Origin: a bacterium
GTDB lineage: Bacteria > Bdellovibrionota_C > UBA2361 > SZUA-149 > JAEUWB01
Assembly (NCBI GenBank): GCA_016786595.1
Contig: JAEUWB010000023.1
Span: 1-45,205 of the forward strand
DNA: 45,205 nt
Direction of reading: 5' to 3'
Part shown: positions 18,226 to 41,169 of the stretch, in pieces
How the letters are laid out: the number at the start of each line of letters is the position of its first letter
Numbering within the stretch: the stretch's first letter is position 1
Made by a program: the position numbers and the translations under genes
The notes under the pieces: generated by a model
What the model was told of the DNA's origin: nothing
Database searches by the model: none
What the model saw: the letters and a program-made list of their open reading frames with translations, nothing else

Positions 18226-21124
18226 TCAGGACCTCCTTACTATCAAATTGTTCAACGCTATCAGAGAGCTGTAAGAGGTCGACAAGCTCATCATCACTTA
18301 ACTCAGTTAAGAAATCAGATGACGTTGAAACAATTGAGGCTGTTAATTTACGCTTCTCTTCAAGTCTGTCGGCAATACTTTCTTCAAGTGTGCCCCGGGA
18401 AATTAGTTTGCGGACGTAAACAGTTTTCGATTGTCCAATGCGAAAGGCGCGGTCGGTAGCTTGATCTTCAACTGCCGGATTCCACCATTGGTCAAAGTGT
18501 ATTACTTGATTGGCTTTAGTTAAATTTAAACCGATTCCGCCCACCTTTAATGAAAGAATTAAGAGTTGAGGTTCAGTGCTTTGCTGAAAATTATCAACAA
18601 TTTTTTGACGCTCAGTCCTGGAGAGCTCGCCATGTAAAAAGGCAACCTTAATCTTAAAAGTTTCCTCCAAGGTTTGTTTTAAAAGCTTACCCATTGAGAC
18701 ATATTGAGTAAAGATTAGCGCACTGTCGTTTTCCTCGAGAATCGTTTCCAGTAATTCGAGTAGTAGCTCCATTTTCCCGGAACGTGCTCGGAGTGTTTTT
18801 TGACTTCCTGTTAAGAGCGCTGGATGATCGCAGACTTGCTTGAGTCGCGTGATCGTTCGCAAAATGATGCCTTTGCGCTCAATGCCTGCTTTACCTTGAA
18901 GCTCACTAAGTTCTTGGCGTAAAATACTTTGATACAATGCTGCTTGTTCGGTTGTTAAAGAAGTATAAACTGGGATGAGGATTTTTTCAGGTAAATCCTG
19001 GATTACGCGCGGGTCACTCTTTAAGCGACGCAGCAGAAAGGGTTTAATTAAACGAGCTAGTGTTTCAGTTGATTTCTGGTCTTTACTTTTCTCAATTGGG
19101 TTAACAAAGCGCGAACTAAATTGACGCTTTGTCCCCAAATATCCCGGATTAAGAAAATCCATAATCGACCAGAGTTCTTCGAGGCGATTTTCTAGTGGAG
19201 TTCCTGTGAGGGCGAGGCGGTTTGTGGCCTTGCTAGTCTCGGCAATGCGACGAATCGCCTTTGTCTGCTTGGTTGAAATATTCTTAATATTCTGTGCTTC
19301 ATCAAGGGCGATAATCGACCAACCAATCTTCGATAACTGATCTTCCTCACGCACAGCCATCGCATATGTTGTTAAAACGATGTCGATTGCATTGATGCGC
19401 TTGAGTAGTGTTGCCCCAGTCAGGCGTTGCTGTCCATGATGCACATAGAGTTTTGATTCAGGAGTAAACTTGGCAGCCTCTCTACGCCAGTTTTCAAGAA
19501 TTGACATCGGGACGACAAGCAGCACAGGTCCCTTACGGTCTTTTTGTGTCATTGCAATCAAGGCCAAGAATTGAATAGTCTTTCCTAAGCCCATGTCATC
19601 AGCAAGACAGGCACCAATTTGTAGCTTATAGAGAGAGTAGAGCCAGCCCAGACCTTGCTTCTGGTATTCTCTCAGGCTTCCCACGAAATTACCGGGCTCA
19701 TCAACAGCGCTGAGCTGCAAATTGCCGTCAATCAACTTTTCTAGCCAGGAACGGGTAGAGAGTCGGATACCGCCCAGTAAGGGGTCGAGCTGTTCATTGC
19801 CAAGACTTAACTTTAATAGTTCTAGTAAGTCAGTATTCGGATCTTGAAAGCGTTTTTGTAGCTGTGCTTCTGAATTAAGAAATTGCGATCCAGGCAGTAG
19901 AAACCAGCGGTCGTTTACATAGAGCAAACGTTCATTTTCTTTGACTAGTTCGCGAAACTCTTGTGGCGACATTTCAGTTTCACCCAGTGCAATTTTCCAA
20001 GAGAAATCAAATAAATCCTTGCTTCTCCCAGTGAGCTTAAGGTTATTTAGCTCTTCTGGCGCTTGGATATTTACAACAATCTCAGGACGTAGCGCGTTTT
20101 GTGCCAAGGTTTTGGGGATTTCAATGGCAAAGCCATTGCGTTCTAGTTCGACTAATGCACGGGTTACAAAATCAATTACCTCCGCTTCGCTAAGAGTAAT
20201 TGCTTGCGGCACAGTACTTACGAGCATTTGCGAGAGCGGACTGAAGATTTGTTGCGCGCTAAGGATTTGTTGGCTGATATATTGATCGAACTCATTCCAA
20301 TCATTATTGAAAAATGCGGTCAGAATTTCTACAAGTTCACGATTATTCTTTCCGAAATAGCACGGCAGCGCATTGGGGTGCGCGATGCCTGGTTTTAAGC
20401 TCCAGAGTTTTTGATTTTTAGCAGGCGCTTCAAGGAAAAAGATCACTCGAATGTCGTCACGGATAACTCCACTGACCGTAGCGCCTAAACCCGCTGGAAG
20501 GTAATTTTTAGAGCGGTACTTCGGATCGATGTACTGATGCAAGGTCGTTGTAGTATTTTCCAGCCGCGAGTGCGAAAGATCGCGAATGATGCGATCAAGG
20601 ATTGAAGAAAAAGCACCGTTAAATATGGAGATTGCGCTATCACTAAAGTGGGTAACGGCTTCAGCGGACTGAGCAAATAAACTGAGCGGTAGATCGTTAA
20701 GATCAATTTGACGCAATAAGGCCGTAGTGATTTCAGGGTCAGTCTTCCACTGTGTCGAGTAACCTGTTTTGTATTCAGGTAGAAAGTGTCCCTCACTGAT
20801 GGTTTGAATCGTAAGCTCGAGTAGAGAAAAGATAAAGTTTGCAGATGGTGCAAGTTTAAATCCAGCAAGTGTAGTTGGCAGTCCTGAATTGATTAACTCT
20901 TCTGGGTTAATCACTAAGCCGGTGATTGTGCTGACTGTAAGCTCTGAGTAAAGCTCTAGCGTACCTGTGCCTGGAGTTTTGTGCTGAGGCAACCATAATT
21001 TAATACTTTGTATCGTAGCAGATGATTCCTCAGGGTTGACGCTGATGCTATTAAATTGCGAACAGTCGAGATCTCTGGACCAGAAAAAGCACGACCCATC
21101 AGTTAAAATTGTTGCTTCAAGCAT
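18215..21124 (-). CDS. SNF2/Rad54-family DEAD/H helicase-like ATPase
   Basis: This 969-residue SNF2-type ATPase probably translocates on double-stranded DNA and remodels protein-DNA complexes. The N-terminal half (about residues 1-470) is a poorly conserved SNF2-associated region. The ATPase core has ACLADDMGLGKTIQFL (Walker A, about residue 505), LDEAQNIKN (motif II), ALTGTPLENRLEELW (motif III) and FLLRRLKSDP. The C-terminal helicase lobe has FTQYVSMGKLL, LKVGGIGLNLTKAN, and WWNPAVEDQATDRAFRIGQ, the closing SNF2 signature. All core motifs look intact. It is the first gene of the minus-strand run and is coupled to the SWIM gene. This gene pair resembles HepA/RapA-like or accessory repair systems, but no specific pathway is shown. 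Confidence 0.93.
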   Translation of the reverse strand: MLEATILTDGSCFFWSRDLDCSQFNSISVNPEESSATIQSIKLWLPQHKTPGTGTLELYSELTVSTITGLVINPEELINSGLPTTLAGFKLAPSANFIFSLLELTIQTISEGHFLPEYKTGYSTQWKTDPEITTALLRQIDLNDLPLSLFAQSAEAVTHFSDSAISIFNGAFSSILDRIIRDLSHSRLENTTTTLHQYIDPKYRSKNYLPAGLGATVSGVIRDDIRVIFFLEAPAKNQKLWSLKPGIAHPNALPCYFGKNNRELVEILTAFFNNDWNEFDQYISQQILSAQQIFSPLSQMLVSTVPQAITLSEAEVIDFVTRALVELERNGFAIEIPKTLAQNALRPEIVVNIQAPEELNNLKLTGRSKDLFDFSWKIALGETEMSPQEFRELVKENERLLYVNDRWFLLPGSQFLNSEAQLQKRFQDPNTDLLELLKLSLGNEQLDPLLGGIRLSTRSWLEKLIDGNLQLSAVDEPGNFVGSLREYQKQGLGWLYSLYKLQIGACLADDMGLGKTIQFLALIAMTQKDRKGPVLLVVPMSILENWRREAAKFTPESKLYVHHGQQRLTGATLLKRINAIDIVLTTYAMAVREEDQLSKIGWSIIALDEAQNIKNISTKQTKAIRRIAETSKATNRLALTGTPLENRLEELWSIMDFLNPGYLGTKRQFSSRFVNPIEKSKDQKSTETLARLIKPFLLRRLKSDPRVIQDLPEKILIPVYTSLTTEQAALYQSILRQELSELQGKAGIERKGIILRTITRLKQVCDHPALLTGSQKTLRARSGKMELLLELLETILEENDSALIFTQYVSMGKLLKQTLEETFKIKVAFLHGELSRTERQKIVDNFQQSTEPQLLILSLKVGGIGLNLTKANQVIHFDQWWNPAVEDQATDRAFRIGQSKTVYVRKLISRGTLEESIADRLEEKRKLTASIVSTSSDFLTELSDDELVDLLQLSDSVEQFDSKEVLSDI

Positions 21125-23038: not shown

Positions 23039-23068
23039 AAAGCCGACTCTCAATCAGTCGGCTTTTTT
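23039..23068 (+). terminator. Intrinsic terminator after the Flp pilin gene
   Basis: AAAGCCGACT (23039-23048), a 7-base loop and AGTCGGCTTT (23056-23065) form a perfect 10-bp stem, and the T run continues to 23068. The next gene is on the same strand with no clear promoter of its own, so partial read-through is expected, giving much pilin and less of the assembly proteins. Confidence 0.85.
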
Positions 23069-23099
23069 GCGTAGTCTGATTTTGCTTACCAGGTGCTTC

Positions 23100-24230
23100 G
23101 TGGTTCGTAAGCCGTACCACGTCAGGTATTTCAATGCACGAGGCCAGGGCCTTGCAGAATATATTATTGTCACGATTCTAGTGGCGTTGATTATTCTTGC
23201 CGGAATTAAACTTTTCGGCAGTAGCGTCGGCAATAAATTCAAAAATGCATCAGCAGAACTAAGCACGATGAAAGATGCTGATAAAACCTCTACCTCTGCA
23301 GAGCGTGAAGTTCGTCCCGGAGGCGGTGCTGAGAAAATTGATGTGAATACGCTTGATTCGGGCACAGCTGCAGGGGGTGGAACCGATCAAGCGGCAGACC
23401 CAGTAGCAAAACTTCGTCCTGAAGGAGTCGGACTTTCTGGACAGAATTTCTTTCCTGACACTGGTTTGTCCTGGATTGGATTAGTTGTGATTGGCGTAAT
23501 TGCGGGCTTGATTGCGGTCGCCATTGTTTTTCGTGACCAGGATGGAAAAGACAAGAAGCATAAAACTACTAAGCGCGGTAAGGCTGCAAAAAAGGAAGCT
23601 GGACAGGCGATGGTTGAGTTTGTGCTGATCAGTATTACTTTTCTCTTTGTTTTATTAGGTCTAATTCAGTTAGCAATGATTTTGAATACACAATCATTAG
23701 TTCGCTACGCTGCTTTTAATGCAGCACGCTCAGGGATTGTGCATGGTGGTGACCTCGATAAAATGCGTGAAGCTGCGCGTATTTCCTTGCTTGCGGTTTT
23801 TCCTAAGCACGGTCGAGCCGATCATCGTCGTGGCTTAATGGACAATTATTTGGCTGCACGAGAAACTGATAATGATCCAAGTCTAACTTATGCAAACAAG
23901 GCAATCACTGAAGTTAAGATTTTAAATAAACAAGGCTTAACGACTGGCCAAGTTGTCACTTTCGATGATCCGATTGAACAGAAAAAGGCAATCCTCACTA
24001 TTCAAGTAACGCACTGGTATCAACTGGTGATCCCACTCGTTAATCGGATGATTTTTCACCTTTATAACCTTTTTCAGAGTAATAGTTATCAAGCCGACAA
24101 TTTAGATTATTATTCGGCACAGACTAATAAATTGCGTCGCAGCGGCAGTTACCAAGATATTGAGTATCGCATTCCCTTAGTTTCGCATTACACCATGCGA
24201 CTTCAATCTGACTACGTGCATGAGGACTAA
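23100..24230 (+). CDS. Flp pilin-TadE fusion protein with two prepilin-like motifs
   Basis: This 376-residue protein joins two pilin-like modules. The first has GQGLAEYIIVTILVALIIL (Gly15, Glu20, Tyr21), matching the preceding Flp pilin. A Gly/Asp/Glu-rich linker (about residues 45-120) and a second hydrophobic segment (about 124-145) lead to a Lys-rich stretch. The second module begins GQAMVEFVLISITFLF (Gly168, Glu173), the TadE pseudopilin motif, and continues with LVRYAAFNAARSG. I chose the GTG at 23100 because the earlier in-frame TTG at 23067 lies in the terminator stem. The reading frame is uninterrupted, so the fusion is real at sequence level. It is followed directly by the TadG-like gene. 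Confidence 0.8.
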   Translation: MVRKPYHVRYFNARGQGLAEYIIVTILVALIILAGIKLFGSSVGNKFKNASAELSTMKDADKTSTSAEREVRPGGGAEKIDVNTLDSGTAAGGGTDQAADPVAKLRPEGVGLSGQNFFPDTGLSWIGLVVIGVIAGLIAVAIVFRDQDGKDKKHKTTKRGKAAKKEAGQAMVEFVLISITFLFVLLGLIQLAMILNTQSLVRYAAFNAARSGIVHGGDLDKMREAARISLLAVFPKHGRADHRRGLMDNYLAARETDNDPSLTYANKAITEVKILNKQGLTTGQVVTFDDPIEQKKAILTIQVTHWYQLVIPLVNRMIFHLYNLFQSNSYQADNLDYYSAQTNKLRRSGSYQDIEYRIPLVSHYTMRLQSDYVHED

Positions 24231-29099: not shown

Positions 29100-29963
29100 G
29101 TGGATAATAAAAGAAAACAATTACTAATTGCGATTCTGATTGCTGGTGGCGCGTTGTTCTTGAATAACTGGTACATTCAGGAGCGTATCGCACAAGTGAC
29201 ACCTAAGCGCGCAATCAAAGTAGTGCGTGCCAAGAGCGCGATCCCGAGTGGAGAACGTCTCTCCAGTAAACATGTTGAGACAGTGCAGGTTCCCGAAAAT
29301 TACAAGCCCAAAGTTGCGATTTCTGACGCTGAAATCAGTCAATATTTTGGACAAGAACTCGCTGTCGACGTCTTACCAGGCGACTACATCTTGCAAAGTT
29401 ATTTCACGCTCAGGCGCGCAGTTGGAAATAAATTATCAGATCTCGTAACAGGACAGAACTTTCGTGCCGTTACAATTCCGGTAGATCAGACAAGTTCGCT
29501 CTCTGGCTCGATTGTTTCTGGCGACCGCATTGATATCTTGTTAACTTTTGGCGTTCCAGGACTAAGCGGCAAATTTTCTACAGCGCTATTGCAGAATGTC
29601 CAGGTAATCGCCACAGGAAGTTATTCCGTAGTTGAGCAAGAAACTGGAGCGACTGTAACTCGTACTCAGCGCTATAATTCGCTCACATTATTACTGACAG
29701 CTCCCGATGCTGCTCGCCTAACCTATGCTCGGCAGACTGGAAAGATTGATATTTTATTACGTAATAGTGGTAATGACGCAATTCAAGAAATTCCTGCGAT
29801 CTCTAATGTGTTGGATTTACTTTCCGCAGAAGAGCGCGAAAAGTTTGCTCGCTTAATTGCTGAGTCACGCATTCAACGGCCAAACCCGGAGGACCTAAAA
29901 AATTCAATGCGTGAGTTGATGGAAAGCCAGAAACGCCAAGGCCTTTCAGTTCCAAAAAGCTAG
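29100..29963 (+). CDS. cpaB: Flp pilus assembly protein CpaB/RcpC
   Basis: CpaB is an inner-membrane-anchored periplasmic component of Tad pili. The 287-residue protein has an N-terminal membrane helix (about residues 8-24), then VVRAKSAIPSGERLSSKHVE, a SAF-type domain like those of CpaB and FlgA, followed by AVTIPVDQTSSLSGSIVSGDRIDILLTF cut here into its parts AVTIPVDQTSSLSG and GDRIDILLTF, the CpaB core. The last third, LLLTAPDAARLTYARQTGK, also fits. The start is a GTG with AGGAG about 11 bases upstream. It begins the assembly-machine part of the locus. Confidence 0.88.
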   Translation: MDNKRKQLLIAILIAGGALFLNNWYIQERIAQVTPKRAIKVVRAKSAIPSGERLSSKHVETVQVPENYKPKVAISDAEISQYFGQELAVDVLPGDYILQSYFTLRRAVGNKLSDLVTGQNFRAVTIPVDQTSSLSGSIVSGDRIDILLTFGVPGLSGKFSTALLQNVQVIATGSYSVVEQETGATVTRTQRYNSLTLLLTAPDAARLTYARQTGKIDILLRNSGNDAIQEIPAISNVLDLLSAEEREKFARLIAESRIQRPNPEDLKNSMRELMESQKRQGLSVPKS

Positions 29964-30000
29964 TAACGTTCAATGGTAAGTTAGCAAAACGAGGATGGGC

Positions 30001-31638
30001 ATGGAGTATAAAGTCGTAGTTGAGTCCGATGGTAAGGTGCTTGAGACCAAGCTGTTTCATGATGCAACTTGCACAATCGGGCGAATTGCCGAGAATGACA
30101 TTGTATTAGCAGAACGAGACGTCTCTAGTAAGCATGCAGAAATACGCCTCGGCAAGGACTCCCAGGGGCAAGTTAAACTTTCCGTGTCTGATGTTGGTAG
30201 CTCTAACGGCACATATTTAGAGGACCGTCGGCTTACTGCAAATGTTGAGCATGAGATTAAGCATAATCAGCGCATCGTAATTGGACGCTTTGTGATTAGG
30301 GCAGCGCTACAGACAAGTCAGACTGAACGGGCTGAAAGCAAGGTAAAGGGGCCTGTTGATAACGAAGAATTCACGCTACGCGCAAAAATTCACGTACAGT
30401 TGATTGATCGCCTTGACTTACGCCGCAAGGATATTCTTAAACTCACGGATTTCGAGCTGCGCGCCAAGACAGCAGAAATGGTCGAGCGTATTTTGGATGA
30501 AATGCGCTGGGAAATTCCAGCTGGACTCGATCGAGCACTATTAATTAAGCACGTCTTGGATGAAGCACTTGGTCTCGGGCCGCTTGAAGAGCTACTTGCC
30601 GATGAAAAAGTCTCAGAAATTATGGTCAATAGTTATGACCGAATTTTTGCTGAACGTGGTGGCAGGTTAGCCTTAACTCCACTTAGATTTTCTTCTGAGG
30701 CAACTGTGCTTTCGGCGATTGAGCGAATTATTTCGCCAATCGGCAGAAGAATCGATGAGAGTTCACCGCTTGTTGATGCGCGTTTAAAAGACGGCTCGCG
30801 AGTGAATGCCGTAATCAGGCCACTTGCGCTTAAGGGCCCGTGCATAACGATCCGTAAATTCGCAAAAACCCCTTTAACCATCGACCACCTTGTTAATTTT
30901 GGATCAATGTCTCGTGGAATGGCAGACTTTTTAAGCCTCGTCGTAACCCAACGTCTAAATGTTGTGATCTCTGGTGGCACAGGTTCTGGTAAAACAACTT
31001 TACTTAACGTGCTGGCGCGATTTATTCCCGAAGGTGAGCGCGTAATTACTGTTGAAGATGCTGCAGAACTGCAACTTGGTCGTGAACATATTGTCTCTTT
31101 TGAGACCCGCCCACCTAACTTAGAAGGTAAGGGTGCAATTGCGATACGTGACCTGGTGCGCAATGCCCTTCGGATGCGACCGGATCGAATCGTCGTCGGC
31201 GAATGTCGTGGTGCAGAAGCTTTAGATATGTTGCAGGCGATGAATACAGGCCATGATGGTTCAATGACTACTGGTCACGCCAACTCGCCAGTCGATATGA
31301 TTTCTCGTTTAGAGACAATGGTCTTAATGGCTGGAATGGACCTTCCAGTGCGAGCTATTCGTGAGCAAATTTCTAGTGCGGTACATGTGATTGTTCAACA
31401 GTCACGTTTAGGCTGTGGTTCACGAAAAGTTACAGCAATTGCTGAAATCGTTGGACTTGACCCAGATGATGGGCGTATCCAACTGCAGGATATTTTTGTA
31501 TTTAGACAGGATGGCTTTGATGATCAGGGTAAAACTCGAGGCAAACATCAAGCTACCGGTTATGTTCCTAAATTTTTCCGCCGCATGCAGCAGGAAGGAA
31601 AGCAACTTGATGGATCGATCTTCGCACCAGATGCTTAG
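30001..31638 (+). CDS. FHA domain-CpaF/TadA pilus ATPase fusion (no. 1)
   Basis: This protein powers pilus assembly. An N-terminal FHA domain (about residues 5-100) has TIGRIAENDIVL, VSSKHAEI and VGSSNGTYL, so its phosphothreonine-binding residues are intact. The CpaF/TadA secretion ATPase follows: Walker A in SGGTGSGKTTLLNVL (about residue 325), VEDAAELQLG, LRMRPDRIVVGECRGAEAL and GSMTTGHANSP, in which Gly replaces the usual Ile/Val before the histidine. The ATG at 30001 has GAGG six bases upstream and is preferred over an ATG six bases earlier. Total 545 residues. A second FHA-CpaF gene lies at 34789. Confidence 0.92.
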   Translation: MEYKVVVESDGKVLETKLFHDATCTIGRIAENDIVLAERDVSSKHAEIRLGKDSQGQVKLSVSDVGSSNGTYLEDRRLTANVEHEIKHNQRIVIGRFVIRAALQTSQTERAESKVKGPVDNEEFTLRAKIHVQLIDRLDLRRKDILKLTDFELRAKTAEMVERILDEMRWEIPAGLDRALLIKHVLDEALGLGPLEELLADEKVSEIMVNSYDRIFAERGGRLALTPLRFSSEATVLSAIERIISPIGRRIDESSPLVDARLKDGSRVNAVIRPLALKGPCITIRKFAKTPLTIDHLVNFGSMSRGMADFLSLVVTQRLNVVISGGTGSGKTTLLNVLARFIPEGERVITVEDAAELQLGREHIVSFETRPPNLEGKGAIAIRDLVRNALRMRPDRIVVGECRGAEALDMLQAMNTGHDGSMTTGHANSPVDMISRLETMVLMAGMDLPVRAIREQISSAVHVIVQQSRLGCGSRKVTAIAEIVGLDPDDGRIQLQDIFVFRQDGFDDQGKTRGKHQATGYVPKFFRRMQQEGKQLDGSIFAPDA

Positions 31639-31648
31639 GGGAAATTAG

Positions 31649-32497
31649 ATGTTACAATTAGAATTATTACATGGCCTTTTAATTTTCAGTGCTGTAGCAC
31701 TTGTAGCCTACCTCTTTGTTGATCGCATTCAATCAGCCGCACAAGAAGTTTCTCAGGCCCAAGCGGAGCAGGGCGCTAAGACGTTCTCTGATTTGTACTT
31801 AAGCATTCCTCCTGAGCTATTTTTCTTCGGCCGAGCATTAGTTGCCTTGATTGCTTTTTTCTTGGTCATGCCCTTGCACATTGTTCCAGCGATAACTGCG
31901 GCAGTTGCAGGTTGGTTCGTGCCTGCAATGTACTTAAAAAGGCTCAAAGAAAAGCGCCTGAAAAAAATCGAGGAACAGCTTGTCGATGGGCTGGAGTTAC
32001 TTGGTAACGGACTGAAATCTGGATTAACTTTGCAGCAAGCACTAGAATTACTAATGCGAGAGTTTCCGCCACCGATCACGCAAGAATTTGGCATGGTTTT
32101 AGCTGAAACTCGCCTCGGGGTAGATTTAGTAGACGCGCTGCATAACATGGCAACGCGACTAAATTCTACAATTGTTTCGATCTTAGTTGCAGGTATTTCA
32201 ATTACTAAGCGTTGCGGAGGAGACTTAACTGAAATTTTTCAAAATATCGCTGCTACGATTCGTGAACAGGCATTAATTGAAGGCAAACTCAATGCTGTGA
32301 CAGCTCAAGGACGCTTTCAGGGATTAATTTTAAGTATTATGCCCTTTGCCTTGATTGTAATTTTATATTTTGTCGACCGTGGACATGTTGAGATCTTGTT
32401 TGGCTTTAAACTTGGACTGATTGCATTTTTTGCTGTGATCGTGATGGTTTGTTTAGCTCAACTGTGGATCCGCAAGTTATTAGCAATCGATGTCTAG
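31649..32497 (+). CDS. tadB: Tad pilus inner-membrane platform protein TadB
   Basis: TadB is one of two inner-membrane platform proteins that couple the ATPase to the pilus. The 282-residue protein has an N-terminal helix, two further segments around residues 55-95, then the T2SF/GspF domain with EEQLVDGLELLGNGLKSGLT, LQQALELLMREFPPPI and VSILVAGISITKRCGGDL, and two C-terminal helices. The ATG is preceded by GGGGAAATTAG, a usable Shine-Dalgarno sequence. It lies 10 bases after the first FHA-CpaF gene and 12 bases before TadC, the standard tadA-tadB-tadC order. Confidence 0.9.
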   Translation: MLQLELLHGLLIFSAVALVAYLFVDRIQSAAQEVSQAQAEQGAKTFSDLYLSIPPELFFFGRALVALIAFFLVMPLHIVPAITAAVAGWFVPAMYLKRLKEKRLKKIEEQLVDGLELLGNGLKSGLTLQQALELLMREFPPPITQEFGMVLAETRLGVDLVDALHNMATRLNSTIVSILVAGISITKRCGGDLTEIFQNIAATIREQALIEGKLNAVTAQGRFQGLILSIMPFALIVILYFVDRGHVEILFGFKLGLIAFFAVIVMVCLAQLWIRKLLAIDV

Positions 32498-32509: not shown

Positions 32510-33394
32510 ATGGAACCACAAACGCTATTAGTCTCGCTCCCGCTTGCCGCCGCCGCAGGATTACTTTATTCGTCGCTGTTTGGGAGAACCGACGACTTTT
32601 CAGCCTTTATTTCTGAACGTGATGCCCAGGAGCGTAGAGCTAATCGCGGAATCTTACTGAGAATTTTTGCAGGGCCGATTAAAACTCTGGGCGAAGTGAT
32701 TGCGACGCTACCGATCGAGAAGAACCGAGAGGAGTTACGCAAGAAGTTGATTCAAGCTGGCAGCCCGGGCGGTTTGTCAGTTGATGAATTCCATGCCGCA
32801 CGAATTATTGCAGTAGTGGTACTGGGCTTATCTGGTGCTTACATCGATTTCGAAATGGATCTCACTCCTGCATTAATGCTTGGACTTTCAGTTTTGGGAA
32901 TTTTTTATCCTGATATTTGGCTACGTGGCTATATTGAAAAACGGAAACGTAGGATATTTAGAGACTTACCTGACACATTGGACACGCTCAGGCTTGCGGT
33001 TGATGCCGGAATGGATTTTGGCTCTGCGATGGGAGTGGTAGTGGAAAAAGGTCGACCCGGTCCATTATTGTATGAACTCGAGCGGGTGGAGCGTGATATG
33101 AGCTTAGGGCGCACACGCCAGGAGGCCTTGCGCGATTTTGCGACTCGTTTGCAAATGCCCGATATTAATACTTTTGTTTTAGCCTTGATCCAAGCCGATC
33201 AGCTCGGCGCAAGTATTGGACCGATCCTGAAAGTGCAAAGTGAAATGGCGCGTAAGCGTCGTTGGCAAATTGCTGAGACGGTTGTCAATAAATTACCAAT
33301 GAAGATGCTTGGACCACTTGTTGTTTTTATTTTCCCAGCGTCTTTTATTATTCTTTTTACGCCACTACTGATTCAATGGTTCTCAGGTGAATAG
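32510..33394 (+). CDS. tadC: Tad pilus inner-membrane platform protein TadC
   Basis: TadC pairs with TadB. The 294-residue protein has membrane helices near residues 8-22 and 98-140, and a GspF-type domain with RIFRDLPDTLDTLRLAVDAG, MDFGSAMGVVVEKG, LGRTRQEALRDFATRL and ALIQADQLGASIG, which is very characteristic. A pair of C-terminal hydrophobic segments ends the protein. The conserved LPDTLD...VDAGMDF layout distinguishes it from TadB. It is followed after 10 bases by an FHA gene that has its own strong AGGAGG, partly overlapping the TadC stop. Confidence 0.92.
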   Translation: MEPQTLLVSLPLAAAAGLLYSSLFGRTDDFSAFISERDAQERRANRGILLRIFAGPIKTLGEVIATLPIEKNREELRKKLIQAGSPGGLSVDEFHAARIIAVVVLGLSGAYIDFEMDLTPALMLGLSVLGIFYPDIWLRGYIEKRKRRIFRDLPDTLDTLRLAVDAGMDFGSAMGVVVEKGRPGPLLYELERVERDMSLGRTRQEALRDFATRLQMPDINTFVLALIQADQLGASIGPILKVQSEMARKRRWQIAETVVNKLPMKMLGPLVVFIFPASFIILFTPLLIQWFSGE

Positions 33395-33404
33395 GAGGTA
33401 ATGC

Positions 33405-34787
33405 GTGGCTGAAGTTCAAATCAAAGTAGTCTCAGGAGTAAGTAGCGGGGATATTTTCCGTTTTAACCTCGATTCAGGAAGCAGTGTCAAGATCGGCCGC
33501 GCTCAGGATAATGACGTAGTGCTAGACGACCAAGCCGTCTCACGTAAACACGCCGAAGTGCGTTTACTTGAGAATAAGCTTGTGCTTGTCGATGTGGGCA
33601 GTTCACATGGAACTTTTCACATGGGCTTTCAAGTCCCGCCGCGTGATCAATCAGGGCGCGTATTAAAGAGTGGCGATGAATTCAAAATTGGCGATACTAT
33701 TTTTTGCGTAGGTTATAACGCCCCCAAGGAGGCTCAGGACGAGCGCCCGCAGCAAGGTTTAAGTGCAGCTCGTGCTAATTTAGGAATCAAATTTAAGAAT
33801 AAAAAAATTCTCTACCCCTTGATTGTACTTGCAGCCTTGGCACTTGCGGCCTTACTGGTCATGCCTGCTGAGAAAAAATCTGCGTTACCTACGCAACATA
33901 GTGACCTTGCAGTGCAGGTTCCAAGTGACGCAGTAATTGGTTTTATCAATGCTGGCGGAGGAAAGGGCCAGAGTGACCAATCACGTGCAGATAAGGCAGT
34001 CTTTACTTTACCAGCTTCAGATTTGTTAGTTGAAGCTGAGTACATCAATGAGGCAGTTCTTGATATTAAGCTTGATGAAGGCACAATCGAATCAATTGAC
34101 CCGAATACTAAAGGCTGGGCCAAGCTTGCCATTCTAATTCGTGACTCACTGACTGGTAAGGACCGCAAGCTTGTTTTTGATAACACTTCTTATCCCTTTA
34201 AAAAGCAGCAAGATGGACAGACTCCAAAGCGTTATGGTGTGCGCAGCACTCGGGCCACACCCTTGAGTCGCATGCCTACAGACACTGTAGAACAACGACT
34301 TGCTACACTAAGAACTTCGCTAGATACGATGGATACAAGTGCGCATGCATTATTTAATACAATTCGTGCGGCACAGCGCCTCGTGATTGAACTACTCACG
34401 CACTTTCGTGTGGATGCTTCACTGATTAAAATTTCTACCGAGTCGACATTGCCAAGTGCTGTGGAGCTCCGTGCCCGGATCGATTCTTTATTACAAGGTT
34501 TCAACAATGCAACACTTTCTCCCACTCAGATTATAAAGCAAGCAAGCGCACTCCTTGCTGATTTAGATTCTGAACTTTGGCGACGTGCGCAGAGTCGTTT
34601 TATTAAGGCAAAGCTTGCATCGCAAGCGAAGAATTACATCGATGCATATGATCACTTAGTAGCAGTTAAAGCCATGATCCCCGATGAGTCCGATGAGCGC
34701 TGGGTGATTGCACAGCGGCTCTTTTCTGATGATAAAATTGTACCTAAAAAAGTTCGACTAAAACCAGAGAAATATCGCAAGAATTAG
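33405..34787 (+). CDS. FHA domain-transmembrane protein of the Tad locus
   Basis: The 460-residue protein has an N-terminal cytoplasmic FHA domain (about residues 5-105) with KIGRAQDNDVVLDD, VSRKHAEVRLLE and VGSSHGTF; histidine replaces the usual asparagine of SSNGT. A membrane helix follows at about residues 130-147 (YPLIVLAALALAALLVMP), and then a periplasmic region of about 310 residues. Its C-terminal part is helical (AKLASQAKNYIDAYDHLVAV) and resembles a single TPR-like pair. The start is GTG with AGGAGG six bases upstream. It lies between TadC and the second FHA-CpaF, so it may link phospho-signals or the ATPase to the periplasmic side. The periplasmic domain family is not recognised. 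Confidence 0.78.
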   Translation: MAEVQIKVVSGVSSGDIFRFNLDSGSSVKIGRAQDNDVVLDDQAVSRKHAEVRLLENKLVLVDVGSSHGTFHMGFQVPPRDQSGRVLKSGDEFKIGDTIFCVGYNAPKEAQDERPQQGLSAARANLGIKFKNKKILYPLIVLAALALAALLVMPAEKKSALPTQHSDLAVQVPSDAVIGFINAGGGKGQSDQSRADKAVFTLPASDLLVEAEYINEAVLDIKLDEGTIESIDPNTKGWAKLAILIRDSLTGKDRKLVFDNTSYPFKKQQDGQTPKRYGVRSTRATPLSRMPTDTVEQRLATLRTSLDTMDTSAHALFNTIRAAQRLVIELLTHFRVDASLIKISTESTLPSAVELRARIDSLLQGFNNATLSPTQIIKQASALLADLDSELWRRAQSRFIKAKLASQAKNYIDAYDHLVAVKAMIPDESDERWVIAQRLFSDDKIVPKKVRLKPEKYRKN

Positions 34788-34788
34788 T

Positions 34789-36294
34789 ATGTTAAAAATT
34801 ATTGTTCATGATGGAAGCGGCAACAAAAACGAACTTAGTTTCGATAAAACATCGATCATGATCGGTAAGGCGCCGGGGAATGATATTGTGCTCTCAAACG
34901 AGAGCGTTTCACGCTTTCACTCGCGCATTACGGTCGACGAAGAGACGATTGAAATCGAAGATGTGGGCAGTACGAATGGTACTTATGTCAACGCTAAGCG
35001 TATTCAGAAGCAAGTTGTAACTGCGAAAGATAAAATTACAATTGGTACAGTTTTAATTACGTGTAATTTGGTTGCGACTGAAGGGCTGGAGCAAAATTCA
35101 ACGGCCGAGACGCAAGGTGAGCGCCAACCTCTAGCAGCTCAGGTGCTTACGCGCGAAGAAACAGCTGCTGAGAAACCTTCAGCAGTAGTTGAGAAGCCAG
35201 CGCAGACTTCAGATCAGTTTTTCATGCAGTCTTTGCGGAGCTTTTTTGGTCCACTTTGGGATTATATTACAGACGACAACACTTCGGAGTTAATGATTAA
35301 TGGACCAAAGGATATCTATATTGAGTCGAAGGGACGTTTGCAGAAACTGGATGCAGAAATTAGCCCAAGTCAGCTAGACGCGCTGGTCATTAATGTTAGT
35401 CAGTATGTTGGCCGCCGCATCAGCGAAGAAGAACCCTACCTAGACGCGCGGTTGCCAGACGGGTCGCGTGTCGCTGTTTTAATGCCTCCCTGTTCTCGCA
35501 AAGGTACAGCAGTTGCCATTCGAAAATTTTCCAAGGAAAAACTCACGCTTCAAAAATTATTTGAATTTGGCAGTCTTTCGCAGGAGATGATCGTTTTTCT
35601 TGAAGCTGCAGTTTTGTTGAAAAAAAATATTATTGTTTCCGGGGGCACGAGCTCAGGAAAAACCTCATTACTCAACGTAATCTCTGGGTTAATTCCAACT
35701 GATGAGAGAATTCTAACAATCGAAGACGCTGCTGAGTTACAGCTCTCCCAAGATCATGTCCTGCCGATGGAAACCCGACCTCCGGATAAGCGCGGCAAGG
35801 GACAAATTACAATCCGTGACCTCGTCAAGGTTTCACTACGTATGCGTCCGGACCGAATTGTAGTTGGTGAAATACGAGGTGGTGAGGCTCTTGATTTGCT
35901 TCAAGCGATGAACACTGGTCACTCCGGCTCGATGGCAACCGTCCACGCCAGCTCTCCGGATCAAGCGATGACGCGACTAGAAACATTGGCTTTGTTTTCC
36001 GGTGTTGAGATTCCACTGCGTGCACTACGCGAGCAGGTTTCAACGGCAATAAACATCGTTGTTCAGGCATCGCGTTTGCCTGATCATTCACGTAAGGTCA
36101 CCCACATTAGCGAAGTCTTGCCCTTAGATGACCAAGGTCGTTACAACGTGCAGGATTTGTTCGTATTTGAGCATACTGGACGAGATCAGTCAGGCAAAAT
36201 TTCAGGCAAACATATTGTAACTGACAACAAACCTTCATTTCTTGATGAAATGAAATTATCTGGATGTAAAGAGGCGCTCGCTTTGTACGAGTAA
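34789..36294 (+). CDS. FHA domain-CpaF/TadA pilus ATPase fusion (no. 2)
   Basis: This is a second FHA-CpaF protein of 501 residues. The FHA domain (about residues 5-100) has MIGKAPGNDIVLSNESVSRF, the SRFHSRI serine-histidine pair and VGSTNGTYVN. A low-complexity Glu/Ala linker leads to the ATPase with Walker A SGGTSSGKTSLLNVI (about residue 285), IEDAAELQLSQDH, LRMRPDRIVVGEIRGGEAL and GSMATVHASSP with the canonical V-H. It is more CpaF-like at this last box than copy no. 1. It starts two bases after the FHA-TM gene and ends six bases before the pseudokinase gene. One ATPase may drive extension and the other retraction, or they may form a hetero-hexamer; neither can be shown here. Confidence 0.9.
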   Translation: MLKIIVHDGSGNKNELSFDKTSIMIGKAPGNDIVLSNESVSRFHSRITVDEETIEIEDVGSTNGTYVNAKRIQKQVVTAKDKITIGTVLITCNLVATEGLEQNSTAETQGERQPLAAQVLTREETAAEKPSAVVEKPAQTSDQFFMQSLRSFFGPLWDYITDDNTSELMINGPKDIYIESKGRLQKLDAEISPSQLDALVINVSQYVGRRISEEEPYLDARLPDGSRVAVLMPPCSRKGTAVAIRKFSKEKLTLQKLFEFGSLSQEMIVFLEAAVLLKKNIIVSGGTSSGKTSLLNVISGLIPTDERILTIEDAAELQLSQDHVLPMETRPPDKRGKGQITIRDLVKVSLRMRPDRIVVGEIRGGEALDLLQAMNTGHSGSMATVHASSPDQAMTRLETLALFSGVEIPLRALREQVSTAINIVVQASRLPDHSRKVTHISEVLPLDDQGRYNVQDLFVFEHTGRDQSGKISGKHIVTDNKPSFLDEMKLSGCKEALALYE

Positions 36295-36300
36295 ATAATT

Positions 36301-38751
36301 ATGGCATTACCTAAAGTATTTAGAAATAGATTTGAAACCGGCGATTTAATCGTTGAGCGTCCCAGTGCGCATATCTATAAAGGCTATGATCGCGAGCTAG
36401 GTAGGCGTGAACTTGCGATTAAGATCTATGTAGAAAAACCTCAGGATGACCCAGCGCTAATTAAAGAGTTTGAGAACGAAGTTGAACTACTTAAGCGTTG
36501 CACGCATGAAACGCTAGTTCCGATTCTGGCTGGTGGGGCAGAAGACGGGGTGTTTTTCATTGCGATGGAGTACATTGAGGGAGTGACCCTCAAGGATTTA
36601 TTAAAAGATAATCCTAGTGGGTTCGATCTACCGCGCGCGTTAGGAATTGTTAAGGACCTTGCTGATGGTCTTGCAGAATTGCACTCGCAGGGAGCAGTGC
36701 ATGGGCACCTAGACAGTCGTGCGATTATTTTTAAGGCGCAGATTCCACGGATCTCTGGCTACTACCCGCGTGTAATTGAAAAAATACACAAAATGCTGAC
36801 CTCAGATTCACGACTAATTGTCGACCCTGCCTACATTTCACCTGAACAGGTTACGGCTCCGGATAAAATCGACGCACGTGCTGATATCTATGCCTTAGGG
36901 GTCTTGGCTTTTGAAATCATGACTGGACAGAAACCTTTCACTTCAAATAATCCGCTGCAGCTTGCGATGAAACATGTGCAAGATAAAATTCCGTCACCAG
37001 CGAAAATCAATGCGAATATTTCACCATTGGTTGATGCAGCTGTGATGCGTGCCTTGTCGAAAAATCCAGCTGAACGATTCAGTAATTGTGCAGAGTTTAT
37101 CGATGCTTTAAGTGGCGGAAAAGGTATGGTGAAAAATCCTTTTGCTGGCCTTACTCCTGAAACTTTAGTCGAAGGTTTGGGCGATGTATCTCAGACAATG
37201 CCTGTTTCAATGTCGGTTGAAACTATTCAGAAAATCTTATCAACACATGCTCCCAAGCGTGAGCAAGTTGAGGATGATAGCAGCTCGACTTTAATGGGTA
37301 GAGCTGCAGTTAAAGACACTCAGCCAGTCACTGATAGCGACGAGATGGCACAGACTGCGATTGGCATGCAAGCAGTTGGCCAGAAGAAGCAAGCAAGTCT
37401 CGTGCAGCTAACCGGCAAAGATAAGGGTAAGAAGTTTACCCTGTCCCAACAGCAGTCAATCGGTGGACGCGATCAGTCCTGTGCTATTCCACTTAGTGAA
37501 TCTGCGATGCCGATGCGCGCATTTATTATTACCGAGCGCAATAATCACTATTTCTTATCCTCTTTTGGCACGACTGGCGTAACGGTGAATGGCCATCAAC
37601 TTGAGGATGAACAGGAACATCAGTTACAGCGTGGTGACATGATCTCTGTCGGCGTTATTGATCTGCGCTTTGTCGCACCCGGTGAAGTCTTTACTTTTAA
37701 AGAGGATGTCGCAGACCGAGTAATTGATCGCCCACCAAGTAAGTTACCACAAGTATTTGTAGCGCTTGGAGTTGTGTTTTTATTACTATCAGGCGGCGGC
37801 GTTTACTATTATTTGCATAACGCCGATATTGCTAAATCTAAGAAAGAAGCTGAAAACCGTAAAAAGGCAAAAGAGCGCGATGAGCTAATGGCTAAGCTCA
37901 AGACCGAAGGCGACACCTTCCTCAAGGAAGGCGCGCTGATTGAGCCTCCGGGTGCAAATGCCAAAGAGCGCTTTCGTGCAGTCCTTGAACTGAGTGAGAA
38001 TGATGGCTATGCCAAGCGACGCTTGCAGGAGATTGATGAACGCTTGCTTGTACTTGATGAATCAAAACGACGTCGCCAAGAACTTGATCAGAAGATTGGC
38101 AACATGCTTGCTGATGGAGAGCGCTACTTCCAAGCTGGAGATTACATTTCACCTCCAGGACGTAACGCTAAGGAAGTGTTTGAGGCAGTCCTAAAAATTG
38201 ACTCAACTCACCAGCAAGCGCAAGCGCGACTTAAGGAAATTGGCAACATCTTGTCTGATCTTTCCGGAAAAATAGAAGAACTTCTGAAAAAAGCTCAGCT
38301 GCATATTGATCAGAATGAAATTGTGCAACCAGCTGGTGCAAATGCCCTTGAAGCTTTGCAACAGGTACTTAAAGTGCAACCACAAAATACAATTGCGAAG
38401 AACGCCTTATACGACTTAGCTGCGCAGCAAGTATTTTTAGGAGACCAGGCCAAGGCGCAAGCTAATGCTGGTCAGATGCGACAATTTTATCTCACTGCAC
38501 AAGCGCTTGGTGTTGACCCTAAGTATTTAGAGCCACGTCTACAGGGTGCACAGCTAATGGAGAAATCTAGAGCAAGCGTTATTATTTACCAACGTGGTAA
38601 TCAGGCTGCGACAACCAAAGAAGAGGGACCATCAACTTACTTGCCGACTCAGGAAATTGATCGACGTGTAGCGGAGCGTTCGCTTGCGTCAAATTCCCAG
38701 CGTGGGCAGGGTGGGCGAGTCTTTATCGATCTTTCTCGGCTGGGTAAATAG
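36301..38751 (+). CDS. Pseudokinase-FHA-transmembrane-repeat protein of the Tad locus
   Basis: The 816-residue protein starts with a Ser/Thr kinase fold (about residues 10-272). The lysine of VAIK (LAIKIY, Lys41), the alpha-C glutamate, the SPEQ block (residues 180-183) and DIYALG are present. The glycine loop is absent, the catalytic HRD is HGH (134-136), and the DFG is replaced at SGYY (152-155), so catalysis is not expected. A degenerate FHA domain follows (about 366-458) that lacks the SxxH pair but has VTVNG. A membrane helix (483-505) leads to three helical repeats (about 530-580, 596-648 and 658-708), each with a Pro-Pro/Ala-Gly-x-Asn-Ala core, predicted periplasmic. It closes the Tad operon. 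It probably acts as a scaffold or sensor rather than an enzyme. Confidence 0.85.
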   Translation: MALPKVFRNRFETGDLIVERPSAHIYKGYDRELGRRELAIKIYVEKPQDDPALIKEFENEVELLKRCTHETLVPILAGGAEDGVFFIAMEYIEGVTLKDLLKDNPSGFDLPRALGIVKDLADGLAELHSQGAVHGHLDSRAIIFKAQIPRISGYYPRVIEKIHKMLTSDSRLIVDPAYISPEQVTAPDKIDARADIYALGVLAFEIMTGQKPFTSNNPLQLAMKHVQDKIPSPAKINANISPLVDAAVMRALSKNPAERFSNCAEFIDALSGGKGMVKNPFAGLTPETLVEGLGDVSQTMPVSMSVETIQKILSTHAPKREQVEDDSSSTLMGRAAVKDTQPVTDSDEMAQTAIGMQAVGQKKQASLVQLTGKDKGKKFTLSQQQSIGGRDQSCAIPLSESAMPMRAFIITERNNHYFLSSFGTTGVTVNGHQLEDEQEHQLQRGDMISVGVIDLRFVAPGEVFTFKEDVADRVIDRPPSKLPQVFVALGVVFLLLSGGGVYYYLHNADIAKSKKEAENRKKAKERDELMAKLKTEGDTFLKEGALIEPPGANAKERFRAVLELSENDGYAKRRLQEIDERLLVLDESKRRRQELDQKIGNMLADGERYFQAGDYISPPGRNAKEVFEAVLKIDSTHQQAQARLKEIGNILSDLSGKIEELLKKAQLHIDQNEIVQPAGANALEALQQVLKVQPQNTIAKNALYDLAAQQVFLGDQAKAQANAGQMRQFYLTAQALGVDPKYLEPRLQGAQLMEKSRASVIIYQRGNQAATTKEEGPSTYLPTQEIDRRVAERSLASNSQRGQGGRVFIDLSRLGK

Positions 38752-38780: not shown

Positions 38781-39767
38781 GTGCGGCTGAATTTACTAGT
38801 TCCTGAAATTGTACTGTTTTTCGCAACCTGCATCTACTTGTTACTCGCATTTATTGTCGGTCGCCCCGCTGTGCTAGGTCTTGAAGATGCACTGAGGCGT
38901 ATTAGCTTTATTTGCTGCTACTATGCGCTTAGCCTTTTCGTAGTTTTTCTTTGTGCGCGACTTAAGTCAATCCAAGAGTGTCGGCAAAGTAAAACGCAGC
39001 TAGCATTTAATGATTTCTCTAGGCAGGCTCTACGTACGAGCTTCTCTTACTCACGCATTTTATGTGATCTGCGACTACTTCTAGTAATTGCCTGCACCTT
39101 TACAGTTTATGTAAATCTTAAGGATTTAATTCCGCTGATCAATCCAAATGTTTATGATCAATATATCATCGACCTCGAGGCCTTTGTCTTTGGCTTTCCA
39201 CTGACTGCCGCGCTAGGTTCAACACTTACAGCTGATTCCGCATCTTACTGGAGCACGGTCTATACATTTTTTTATTCGTATATGGGACTAAGTGTTTTAA
39301 TAGTACTTTTGCATGGAAGACAGCAGATCACGCATGAATTTGTTACGGCATTTGTGCTCGTTTGGTTTATAGGAATTCTTGTTGTGTATGCGCTACCGAC
39401 CTTAGGACCTTGTTTTTATGACTGGCCGGCTGAGCACTTAATCTACCCAAGTGGTGTGCATGACATGCAAGAGAAGCTTTATCGCTGGATGATTTTGCTG
39501 GGTGAGAATCCGTTCAGGCAGAATGCAGCTTATATGATCTCCGGACTACCGAGCTTACACATTGCTGTGCCGACTCTTGCTACTTACTATTTATTGAGAG
39601 TCAATCGCATTGTCGGTGCAGCATCAATACTATTTATGATGCTTACTTTTTATGCGGCTTTAGTTTTCGAATGGCATTATGTCAGTGATCTTTTAGCCGG
39701 GATTTGTCTTGGTTTATTTTGTATTATGCTCGCGCGAAAGCTTACTAAGACAGAGCTTAAAGTGTGA
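38781..39767 (+). CDS. PAP2-type membrane phosphatase / inositol-phosphotransferase-like protein
   Basis: This 328-residue polytopic protein has about six or seven membrane helices. Near the C-terminus it has SGLPSLHIAVPTLATYY and FEWHYVSDLLAG, which match the PSLH and HxxxD blocks of the PAP2_3 family (phosphatidic-acid-phosphatase-like, including inositol phosphorylceramide synthase-type enzymes). The active histidines would face the periplasm. The start is a GTG without a Shine-Dalgarno sequence, 29 bases after the pseudokinase gene. The substrate is unknown: a lipid-linked phosphate or undecaprenyl pyrophosphate is possible. Its pairing with a GT-C-like membrane protein hints at envelope glycolipid work. 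Confidence 0.8.
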   Translation: MRLNLLVPEIVLFFATCIYLLLAFIVGRPAVLGLEDALRRISFICCYYALSLFVVFLCARLKSIQECRQSKTQLAFNDFSRQALRTSFSYSRILCDLRLLLVIACTFTVYVNLKDLIPLINPNVYDQYIIDLEAFVFGFPLTAALGSTLTADSASYWSTVYTFFYSYMGLSVLIVLLHGRQQITHEFVTAFVLVWFIGILVVYALPTLGPCFYDWPAEHLIYPSGVHDMQEKLYRWMILLGENPFRQNAAYMISGLPSLHIAVPTLATYYLLRVNRIVGAASILFMMLTFYAALVFEWHYVSDLLAGICLGLFCIMLARKLTKTELKV

Positions 39768-39774
39768 TTATTTT

Positions 39775-41169
39775 GTGAACCTCACAGCAACTAAAATTAT
39801 TCCTCAAGCTCTGGCCCAGCACGTCCTCGTCGTATTTATTTTACTCGCCCTAGGTCTTGGCTATCAATCTTTGTCTGATCTAGACCTGGGTTGGCATTTA
39901 GCAAGCGGGCTATGGATCATTAAACACAAACAAGTCCCATGGGCTGACCCCTTCTCAATTAGTGTTACACCGTGGATTGATTACTCGTGGTTATTTGATT
40001 TATTGATTGCGAGCGTTTACTCACTTGCAGGCTTTAAAGGCTTAATTGCAGCGCAAGCGCTATTACCAGCGATCTTAGTCGCCTTAGTATATCAGGCATT
40101 TAATCGCGTAGCTCACAGCCGTTTTCTTGTTTTACTAGGCCTTGCCATACTTGCAACGTATGGAGTCTGGTCGCTTAGGCCGCAAATGCTAAGTCTTATC
40201 TTTTTTGTGATTGCTCTTAGATATGCAAATAGCCACTCTAAGCACTCACTTTTAATTTTAAGCATACTTACAATAGTAGCGGCTAATATCCACGTATTTT
40301 GGGTTTTTATTCCTCTGCTTTGGTTACTTAAGGAGGAGGGGAGTTTAAAACAGAGAACTCTAGGTAGTTTTTCTTTGGTGTTGTGCTCACTGGTTAATCC
40401 ATATGGCTACAAACTCTGGGAGGTGATATTTAATTATGCAACCGCGCATACAAATGCATACTTAATGATTCATGAGTTTGCGCCGATTTACGAGAGTAGT
40501 GGCTTAGCGCTTTGTTTATTTGCACTCTTTACTCTGGCTTTGGCATTTACATTTAGAAGGCTCAGTTCTTTTCGTCGCGTATTGCTACTTATTTTTTTTG
40601 CTGGATCATTTGTGCGCGTTAAAATATTGCCATTCTATGCGATTTTGGCGGCGCTGACTCTTCTTGGCAAGTTAGCTAGTGAGGAAGTAGATCGCAAGGA
40701 GCTTAGGGTTGACACTAAAGGACTTAGCTATTTGATTGGGTTTAAAGTGCTTCTGACATTAAACTTATTTATTACAATTATATCGACCCCTCTTTTATCA
40801 GATCGCGCTCAATCAATTCTTAGTTTATGGGGCAAGGTTCACACACTCAGTCATAGCAATGTGATTAGTCACTTTAATGACAGTGGCTGGTTGATACTGG
40901 CTGAGTACTTGCGGTCGATGCCAGACGATCCGCTGCTGAGAATAGTTTTGGATGGGCGCACGCTTGTGACTGGCGAGGAAAAACTGCAAGAAGCAGCCGA
41001 GTTAAATGCTGATCCAAGACGAATACTGGAATTCGCAGAAAAGTATCATGTTGATTACGCATTATTTCCGAGGCAGACTTTTGTTAGTAAAATCTTACTT
41101 AAAAACGGTTGGCATTTATTACTTGAATCCGATAATTATCTAGTTTTATCTAAAGATTTCGGGCATTAA
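39775..41169 (+). CDS. Polytopic membrane protein, GT-C glycosyltransferase-like
   Basis: The protein has about ten hydrophobic segments. Its first periplasmic loop has SLSDLDLGWHLASGLWIIKH and VPWADPFSIS, a pattern with conserved aspartate and histidine like that of bacterial GT-C-type membrane glycosyltransferases and related uncharacterised proteins. The C-terminal soluble domain contains SGWLILAEYLRSMPDDP and LVLSKDFGH at the very end. I chose the GTG at 39775, eight bases after the previous stop, because the frame upstream runs back into the neighbouring gene. This gives 464 residues. The transferase role is inferred from topology and the loop motif; the donor and acceptor are unknown. 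Confidence 0.68.
   Translation: MNLTATKIIPQALAQHVLVVFILLALGLGYQSLSDLDLGWHLASGLWIIKHKQVPWADPFSISVTPWIDYSWLFDLLIASVYSLAGFKGLIAAQALLPAILVALVYQAFNRVAHSRFLVLLGLAILATYGVWSLRPQMLSLIFFVIALRYANSHSKHSLLILSILTIVAANIHVFWVFIPLLWLLKEEGSLKQRTLGSFSLVLCSLVNPYGYKLWEVIFNYATAHTNAYLMIHEFAPIYESSGLALCLFALFTLALAFTFRRLSSFRRVLLLIFFAGSFVRVKILPFYAILAALTLLGKLASEEVDRKELRVDTKGLSYLIGFKVLLTLNLFITIISTPLLSDRAQSILSLWGKVHTLSHSNVISHFNDSGWLILAEYLRSMPDDPLLRIVLDGRTLVTGEEKLQEAAELNADPRRILEFAEKYHVDYALFPRQTFVSKILLKNGWHLLLESDNYLVLSKDFGH

Follow-up and report, generated by a model that had tools for sequence, protein, structure and literature searches.

What does a kinase fold without a kinase active site do among the genes of a pilus machine whose motor ATPases carry FHA domains? 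The question is raised by a 45,205-nucleotide stretch of a bacterial genome (contig JAEUWB010000023.1, hereafter the window), in which such a protein, termed PSK, is encoded beside Tad-type genes. In some Tad-type systems, both the motor and accessory proteins carry FHA domains (PMC8460266). We propose that PSK serves the Tad (type IVc) pilus machine as a non-catalytic hub in the inner membrane for its FHA-tailed CpaF motors, a reading to which we assign a probability of about one half. That the motors would dock on PSK we infer by analogy with published pairs of a pseudokinase and an FHA protein.

PSK combines a kinase fold, an FHA domain, one membrane helix and three repeats (Table 1), an architecture named in the initial annotation and borne out by Pfam, hydropathy and AlphaFold. 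Pfam places the kinase fold at residues 24-261 (PF07714, 79.9 bits; PF00069, 76.8 bits), and over the whole domain both sequence and fold similarity are Hanks-type (PknB-like): PknB and StkP are nearest by sequence, and PknB structures are among the top fold matches, with TM-scores (target) of 0.83-0.84. An FHA/YscD-cpl match follows at residues 370-459 (PF16697, 44.9 bits; PF00498, 29.7 bits). The helix at residues ~485-503 is the top hydrophobic stretch by hydropathy in all six PSK orthologs, and its C-terminal flank is rich in Lys and Arg. Each of the three repeats behind it contains a P-[PA]-G-x-N-A loop. Designed TPR chains are their best profile match and, locally, also the best match of their model, with low global TM-scores that preclude naming a closer relative than TPR-like; the Pfam scan of PSK returned no TPR match. 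Because a single membrane helix stands behind domains of cytosolic type, the repeats are probably periplasmic. In the AlphaFold model, which rests on six sequences only, pLDDT is ~85-90 for most of the kinase domain, 75-86 for the FHA domain and ~90 for the repeats; the whole-protein values (mean pLDDT 74.5, pTM 0.39) mean that the domains are confident and their mutual arrangement is not.

Table 1. Features of PSK and of its gene neighbourhood, in window coordinates.
Feature	Position	Strand	Basis
CpaB/RcpC	29100..29963	+	PF16976, 74.3 bits
FHA-CpaF1, first motor ATPase, canonical FHA domain	29995..31638	+	Pfam, synteny, motif reading
TadB-like platform protein	31649..32497	+	Pfam, synteny
TadC-like platform protein	32510..33394	+	Pfam, synteny
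FHA-TM protein, bitopic	33405..34787	+	Pfam, synteny
FHA-CpaF2, second motor ATPase, canonical FHA domain	34789..36294	+	Pfam, synteny; same six genomes as PSK
PSK, pseudokinase-pseudoFHA-TM-TPR protein, 816 aa	36301..38751	+	ORF, Pfam, orthologs
Kinase-fold domain, residues 8-271	36322..37113	+	Pfam; PknB-like fold, TM-score (target) 0.83; pLDDT
Arg-Pro in place of glycine loop, residues 20-21, invariant	36358..36363	+	Alignment
Lys41, beta-3 (VAIK) lysine, invariant in 6/6	36421..36423	+	Alignment
Altered catalytic loop HGHLDSRAIIFK, residues 134-145	36700..36735	+	Conservation scoring
DFG position, Gly153-Tyr-Tyr	36757..36765	+	Alignment
Linker motif T299-[IMV]-x-[VG]-[SG]-[MI]-S305, candidate phosphothreonine site	37195..37215	+	Alignment; like motif in paralog L099
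Degenerate FHA domain, residues 366-459	37396..37677	+	Pfam, alignment
Single membrane helix, residues ~485-503	37753..37809	+	Hydropathy
Three TPR-like helical repeats, residues ~530-720, inferred periplasmic	37888..38460	+	P-[PA]-G-x-N-A loop; profile and structure matches
PAP2-superfamily membrane protein, gene conserved directly after PSK	38781..39767	+	Pfam, synteny
Multi-helix membrane protein, conserved downstream of PAP2 gene	39709..41169	+	Synteny

By Pfam and synteny, the locus unites a Tad (type IVc) gene set, with CpaB/RcpC, CpaF ATPase, TadB, TadC and TadE/G-type genes; no secretin was found among the locus proteins scanned, and two are encoded elsewhere in the genome (contigs C59 and C26). 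The CpaF2 gene directly precedes the PSK gene in 6/6 loci, and the order CpaB, FHA-CpaF1, TadB, TadC, FHA-TM, FHA-CpaF2, PSK, PAP2, membrane protein is constant as far as the contigs reach. These loci end at different points, two of them (L045 and L049) start inside the gene set, and for genome G013 the missing front half was found on a separate contig, L100. PSK had been thought to close the Tad operon, which proved wrong: a PAP2-family ORF starts 29 bases after it, and the PAP2 and membrane-protein genes also lie downstream in four other loci, the contig of the fifth stopping within PAP2. PSK thus has further operon genes behind it. Of 46 genomes of the phylum, all from one class, six contain the full FHA-TM-repeat part, and these six are also the ones with CpaF2. 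As many of the 46 are incomplete, absence elsewhere is only indicative, and because both genes sit in one operon their co-occurrence is partly trivial. A tblastn search of a plasmid collection with the FHA-TM-repeat part of PSK gave zero matches. The only confirmed match of the single PSK sequence in a scan of genome contigs (L044, Hydrogenedentota) is an FHA protein without a kinase domain, lies outside a Tad locus and was not counted.

Two further genes of the window deserve mention. In a single ORF at 23067-24230, a pilin-like hydrophobic segment lies at the N-terminus, along with a second hydrophobic segment and a match to TadE over residues 179-221; the ORF is either a fusion or a merger of two separate genes in the ORF call. 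An SNF2-type helicase is encoded at 18215-21124 on the minus strand; its NCBIfam matches all fall below their cut-offs, and among them are ZorD and a pilus expression-regulating Snf2 helicase.

We read the kinase motifs of PSK by alignment against active kinases. Its HRD site is H134-G135-H136, with D138 in place of the catalytic Lys and A141 in place of the catalytic Asn, while Lys41, the alpha-C acid E60, the APE motif (as SPE) and D195 are kept. Five full-length orthologs were found in other genomes of the same order, representing five other genera, at 36-41% identity. The active Hanks-type residue set is absent from 6/6 orthologs, each lacking the glycine loop, the HRD Asp, the Lys and Asn of HRDLKPEN and the DFG Asp; the HRD site reads H-[GA]-H, position 141 is Ala or Ser, and Lys41 is invariant. 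The initial annotation, which had listed a lost glycine loop, HGH for HRD, a lost DFG and a retained Lys41, is therefore upheld across the family, and the objection that PSK is one decayed copy is ruled out by the same losses in six genera. On this residue inventory, PSK looks unable to act as a normal protein kinase. Nine further kinase domains of the same genome combine a high PF00069 score with HRD, and across the phylum the other high-scoring kinase domains that were read show an HRD site, replaced by HGD in two of them, the exceptions being two further pseudokinase-like proteins of the same genome. The window genes scanned yielded no active kinase, a point against the hub proposed here. 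In a kinase-domain tree, PSK forms a single clade (100/99) on a long stem, with a sister group that lacks resolution; its join with a second pseudokinase, described below, was flagged as possible long-branch attraction.

Conservation in the domain peaks at the altered loop. With a score of 0.836 against a mean of 0.464, HGHLDSRAIIFK (residues 134-145) is the top-conserved 12-residue window of the kinase domain, and K41, H134, H136, D138, R140 and K145 are invariant in the pocket. Mean pairwise identity is 47% in the C-lobe and 43% in the repeats. Since the losses are common to all six orthologs, the altered loop is most conserved and the C-lobe is conserved like the repeats, the domain shows the pattern of a repurposed rather than a decaying one: judged by conservation, its active-site loop is retained and not left to decay.

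The modularity of the family bears on the same point. One genome (G008, contig C127; L050:3794-5191:-) encodes an FHA-TM-repeat paralog of PSK without a kinase domain, so the kinase part can be dispensed with in some cases, a point against the proposed hub. This contig carries TadC, FHA-TM and the kinase-less paralog, and CpaF2 is missing between the latter two; as the two missing pieces are adjacent, a single deletion could explain both, and the case is no independent proof that the kinase domain and CpaF2 form a pair. A further paralog (G013, contig C649; L099:1-1119), encoded near a TadE/G-like gene, has a kinase-like C-lobe, a linker motif, a membrane helix and one repeat and lacks the FHA domain; the contig start cuts away its catalytic loop. 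By sequence comparison, the constant part across the family is thus the membrane helix with the repeats, and the kinase and FHA parts are each present in some members and absent from others. One might regard the kinase domain as a relic that decayed once in an ancestor and was kept only through fusion to a useful FHA-TM-TPR part, which the kinase-less paralog shows can stand alone. We consider this very unlikely, because conservation of the C-lobe equals that of the repeats and because the mutated loop, where a relic should drift fastest, is instead the part best preserved.

A pocket of this kind might still bind or convert something. The conserved altered loop with its new invariant polar and charged residues, together with the retained Lys41, would suit a ligand sensor in which the reshaped pocket binds a nucleotide, a metal or a small molecule and signals to the motors or across the membrane. 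Loss of the glycine loop and of both catalytic Asp residues usually abolishes Mg-ATP binding, however, ATP binding is reported absent for the pseudokinases MviN (PMC12599244) and YukC (PMC9600267), and the conservation of the loop may equally mark a protein-protein surface, which together make a sensor improbable. An unorthodox enzyme would go further. Pseudokinase folds do catalyse other reactions, namely AMPylation in SelO and polyglutamylation in SidJ. Both count among the bacterial pseudokinases (PMC12599244) and could serve as precedents for a different reaction catalysed by the kinase fold of PSK through H134, H136 and D138, new invariant residues at the catalytic loop. Yet the DFG position offers no acidic metal residue (G153), the glycine loop is gone and nothing points to any substrate, so that we give this idea very little credence.

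The FHA domains of the locus fall into different states. The FHA domain of PSK itself, already described as degenerate in the initial annotation, is degenerate in all six orthologs: S-x-x-H and the binding-loop Asn-Gly are absent from 6/6 aligned sequences, and the Arg of the GR motif is retained solely in the window copy. On motif reading, its phosphothreonine site is gone throughout the family. In the motors CpaF1 and CpaF2, by comparison, the FHA domains of the loci read retain G-[RK], S-x-x-H and NG (the N-terminus of CpaF1 is incomplete in L101), so that they could in principle read phosphothreonine. Walker A is intact in every copy of both motors that was read. In the FHA-TM protein, GR is kept (GS in the L050 paralog), Ser is mostly kept, His is kept and Asn is replaced.

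A candidate ligand for such intact domains lies in PSK itself. Both T299 and S305 are invariant in a linker that otherwise varies (mean identity 27%); T299 is part of T-x-x-V in 5/6 orthologs, and the FHA-less paralog L099 has a similar linker motif, VETIHVSVS. The linkers of PSK (window 37280-37370, residues ~330-355) and of its orthologs also repeat a T-[LMAI]-[MIV]-G pattern, as STLMG, QTAIG, QTMVG and KTMVG, with T340 and G355 unchanged across the aligned sequences.

Two published pairs of a pseudokinase and an FHA domain offer models for PSK. In T7SSb, EssB/YukC is described as an interaction hub and is encoded with an FHA-carrying ATPase (PMC9600267, PMC13037476). The pseudokinase YukC co-purifies with the FHA region of YukB (PMC9600267), and cryo-EM has been reported (PMC13037476). 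Like PSK, EssB/YukC and TraF of pIP501 join a cytosolic pseudokinase to one membrane helix and a helical outer domain, and PSK, its topology being predicted, shows the EssB/YukC-type layout beside an FHA-tailed ATPase. EssB/YukC and TraF belong to T7SS and T4SS machines, however, whereas PSK belongs to a Tad pilus; PSK has an additional FHA domain and TPR-like repeats, the motor FHA domains next to it keep the phosphothreonine site, and its kinase part, unlike that of EssB/YukC, is recognisably PknB-like by sequence. The YukC/EssB family is absent among the PSK matches in Pfam up to E 0.1 and in NCBIfam up to E 0.01. In Mycobacterium, FhaA is recruited through its FHA domain by a tail that follows the MviN pseudokinase and is phosphorylated (PMC12599244). 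MviN (ActPs3 family) resembles PSK in being a membrane protein with a dead kinase domain, and the invariant Thr of PSK is placed comparably to the phosphorylated tail of MviN; phosphorylation of T299 is a candidate event. The MviN-FhaA pair differs from PSK in partner and process, and Pfam found no MviN/MurJ flippase domain in PSK. By sequence, PSK stands outside both families, although it would act in the manner of one or the other.

The FHA domains of YukB and EssC are phospho-blind (PMC9600267) and those of the Tad motors here look phospho-competent, so that the two precedents point to different modes of docking. In the mode that we favour, another kinase of the cell would phosphorylate T299 and the intact FHA domains of the motors would read pT299, as in MviN-FhaA, which would make motor docking switchable. 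In the other mode, the kinase fold itself would dock on FHA, as in YukC-YukB. A strict form of the latter, in which the kinase fold is the FHA-binding surface, phosphorylation plays no part and T299 is kept only as a structural segment, has the shared layout of PSK and YukC next to an FHA-tailed ATPase in its favour, as well as the formation of the YukC-YukB contact in E. coli, which its authors take as phosphorylation independent (PMC9600267). A purely structural contact would not need the phosphothreonine residues, though, and in the loci read the motor FHA domains keep them, unlike YukB/EssC; we therefore rate this form as rather doubtful.

The YukC-like layout, the invariant T299 and motor FHA domains that look competent for phosphothreonine lead us to favour PSK as a hub for the motors, possibly under a separate kinase. 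The cytosolic pseudokinase, the pseudo-FHA domain and the linker with T299 would tether CpaF1 and CpaF2 to the membrane, the single helix would pass this hold to the TPR-like repeats in the periplasm, and the repeats would in turn hold the pilus assembly complex. The scaffold suggested in the initial annotation fits the fixed place of PSK beside two FHA-tailed CpaF motors and the published pseudokinase-FHA pairs; the sensing across the membrane and the control of the motor that it also suggested are conjectural. PSK is thus a concrete candidate for a partner and anchor of the FHA domains of Tad-type motors and, if the proposal is true, the pseudokinase-FHA coupling of T7SSb would be in wider use among envelope machines.

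Other envelope machines share single elements with this locus. The Tad-like Kil system of Myxococcus xanthus has a CpaF-type motor, KilF, with an N-terminal FHA domain and further FHA proteins in its clusters (PMC8460266), as here; the PSK locus, unlike Kil, has two FHA-CpaF motors. No PSK-like protein was found described for Kil in PMC8460266, and the word 'kinase' is absent from its main text. The SctD/YscD ring proteins of T3SS, like PSK, carry an FHA-like cytosolic domain before a membrane helix, and PF16697 matches PSK above its cut-off. PSK differs from them by the TPR-like part behind the helix and the kinase fold in front, and the full-length SctD model TIGR02500 gives only a weak match, 24.2 bits where the cut-off is 86 bits. 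Among the matches listed in literature searches of partial coverage, we found no pseudokinase in a Tad system.

The genome of the window encodes two more pseudokinase-like proteins. One (G000:C12:18098-18439; L103:6356-8857:-) has 833 residues, the motifs VHGHICSSN and LLDPG and a hydrophobic stretch; it adjoins a GcpE gene, and there were no Tad genes among the neighbours scanned. The other is a pseudokinase-TM protein of 834 residues (G000:C7:15043-17544; L102:7044-9548), encoded with CpaB, CpaF, TadB, TadC, FHIPEP (SctV/FlhA-type), double-FHA, YscJ/FliF and FliN-type genes. Relatives of this second pseudokinase occur in 31/46 genomes of the phylum at E up to 1e-25, with some matches partial. 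In an alignment of 20 sequences (its own and 19 others), the HRD position reads G-[DN] in 18/20, K-D in L105 (G002) and neither Asp nor Asn in L116 (G007); the beta-3 lysine and, at its aligned position, DFG are found in 0/20, with the letters DFG a few residues beyond that position in L106 and L107, which makes these two less certain. Five other loci of this protein have the matched genes in the same order (5/5), over spans from CpaB to SctQ and the next gene (L126), from CpaB to SctQ (L128), from CpaB to the pseudokinase only (L127 and L130) and from SctV onwards, where the contig ends (L129).

Two distinct membrane pseudokinases beside FHA-bearing parts of Tad-type machines in one phylum could, tentatively, reflect a recurring coupling of a dead kinase to an FHA motor, like EssB-EssC but arisen in a different machine and, for PSK, switchable through phosphorylation of T299; we regard this as possible rather than probable. 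The mix of Tad and T3SS-type genes at the second locus recalls the Myxococcus Kil system and the 'needleless' T3SS* (PMC12075869) of the same genus. About 10 kb upstream of the second pseudokinase lies an intact kinase with HRD and DFG (G000:C7:4543-5304; L002, L131:4420-5853), and ORFs resembling either this kinase or the second pseudokinase also occur upstream of CpaB in L127 and L130.
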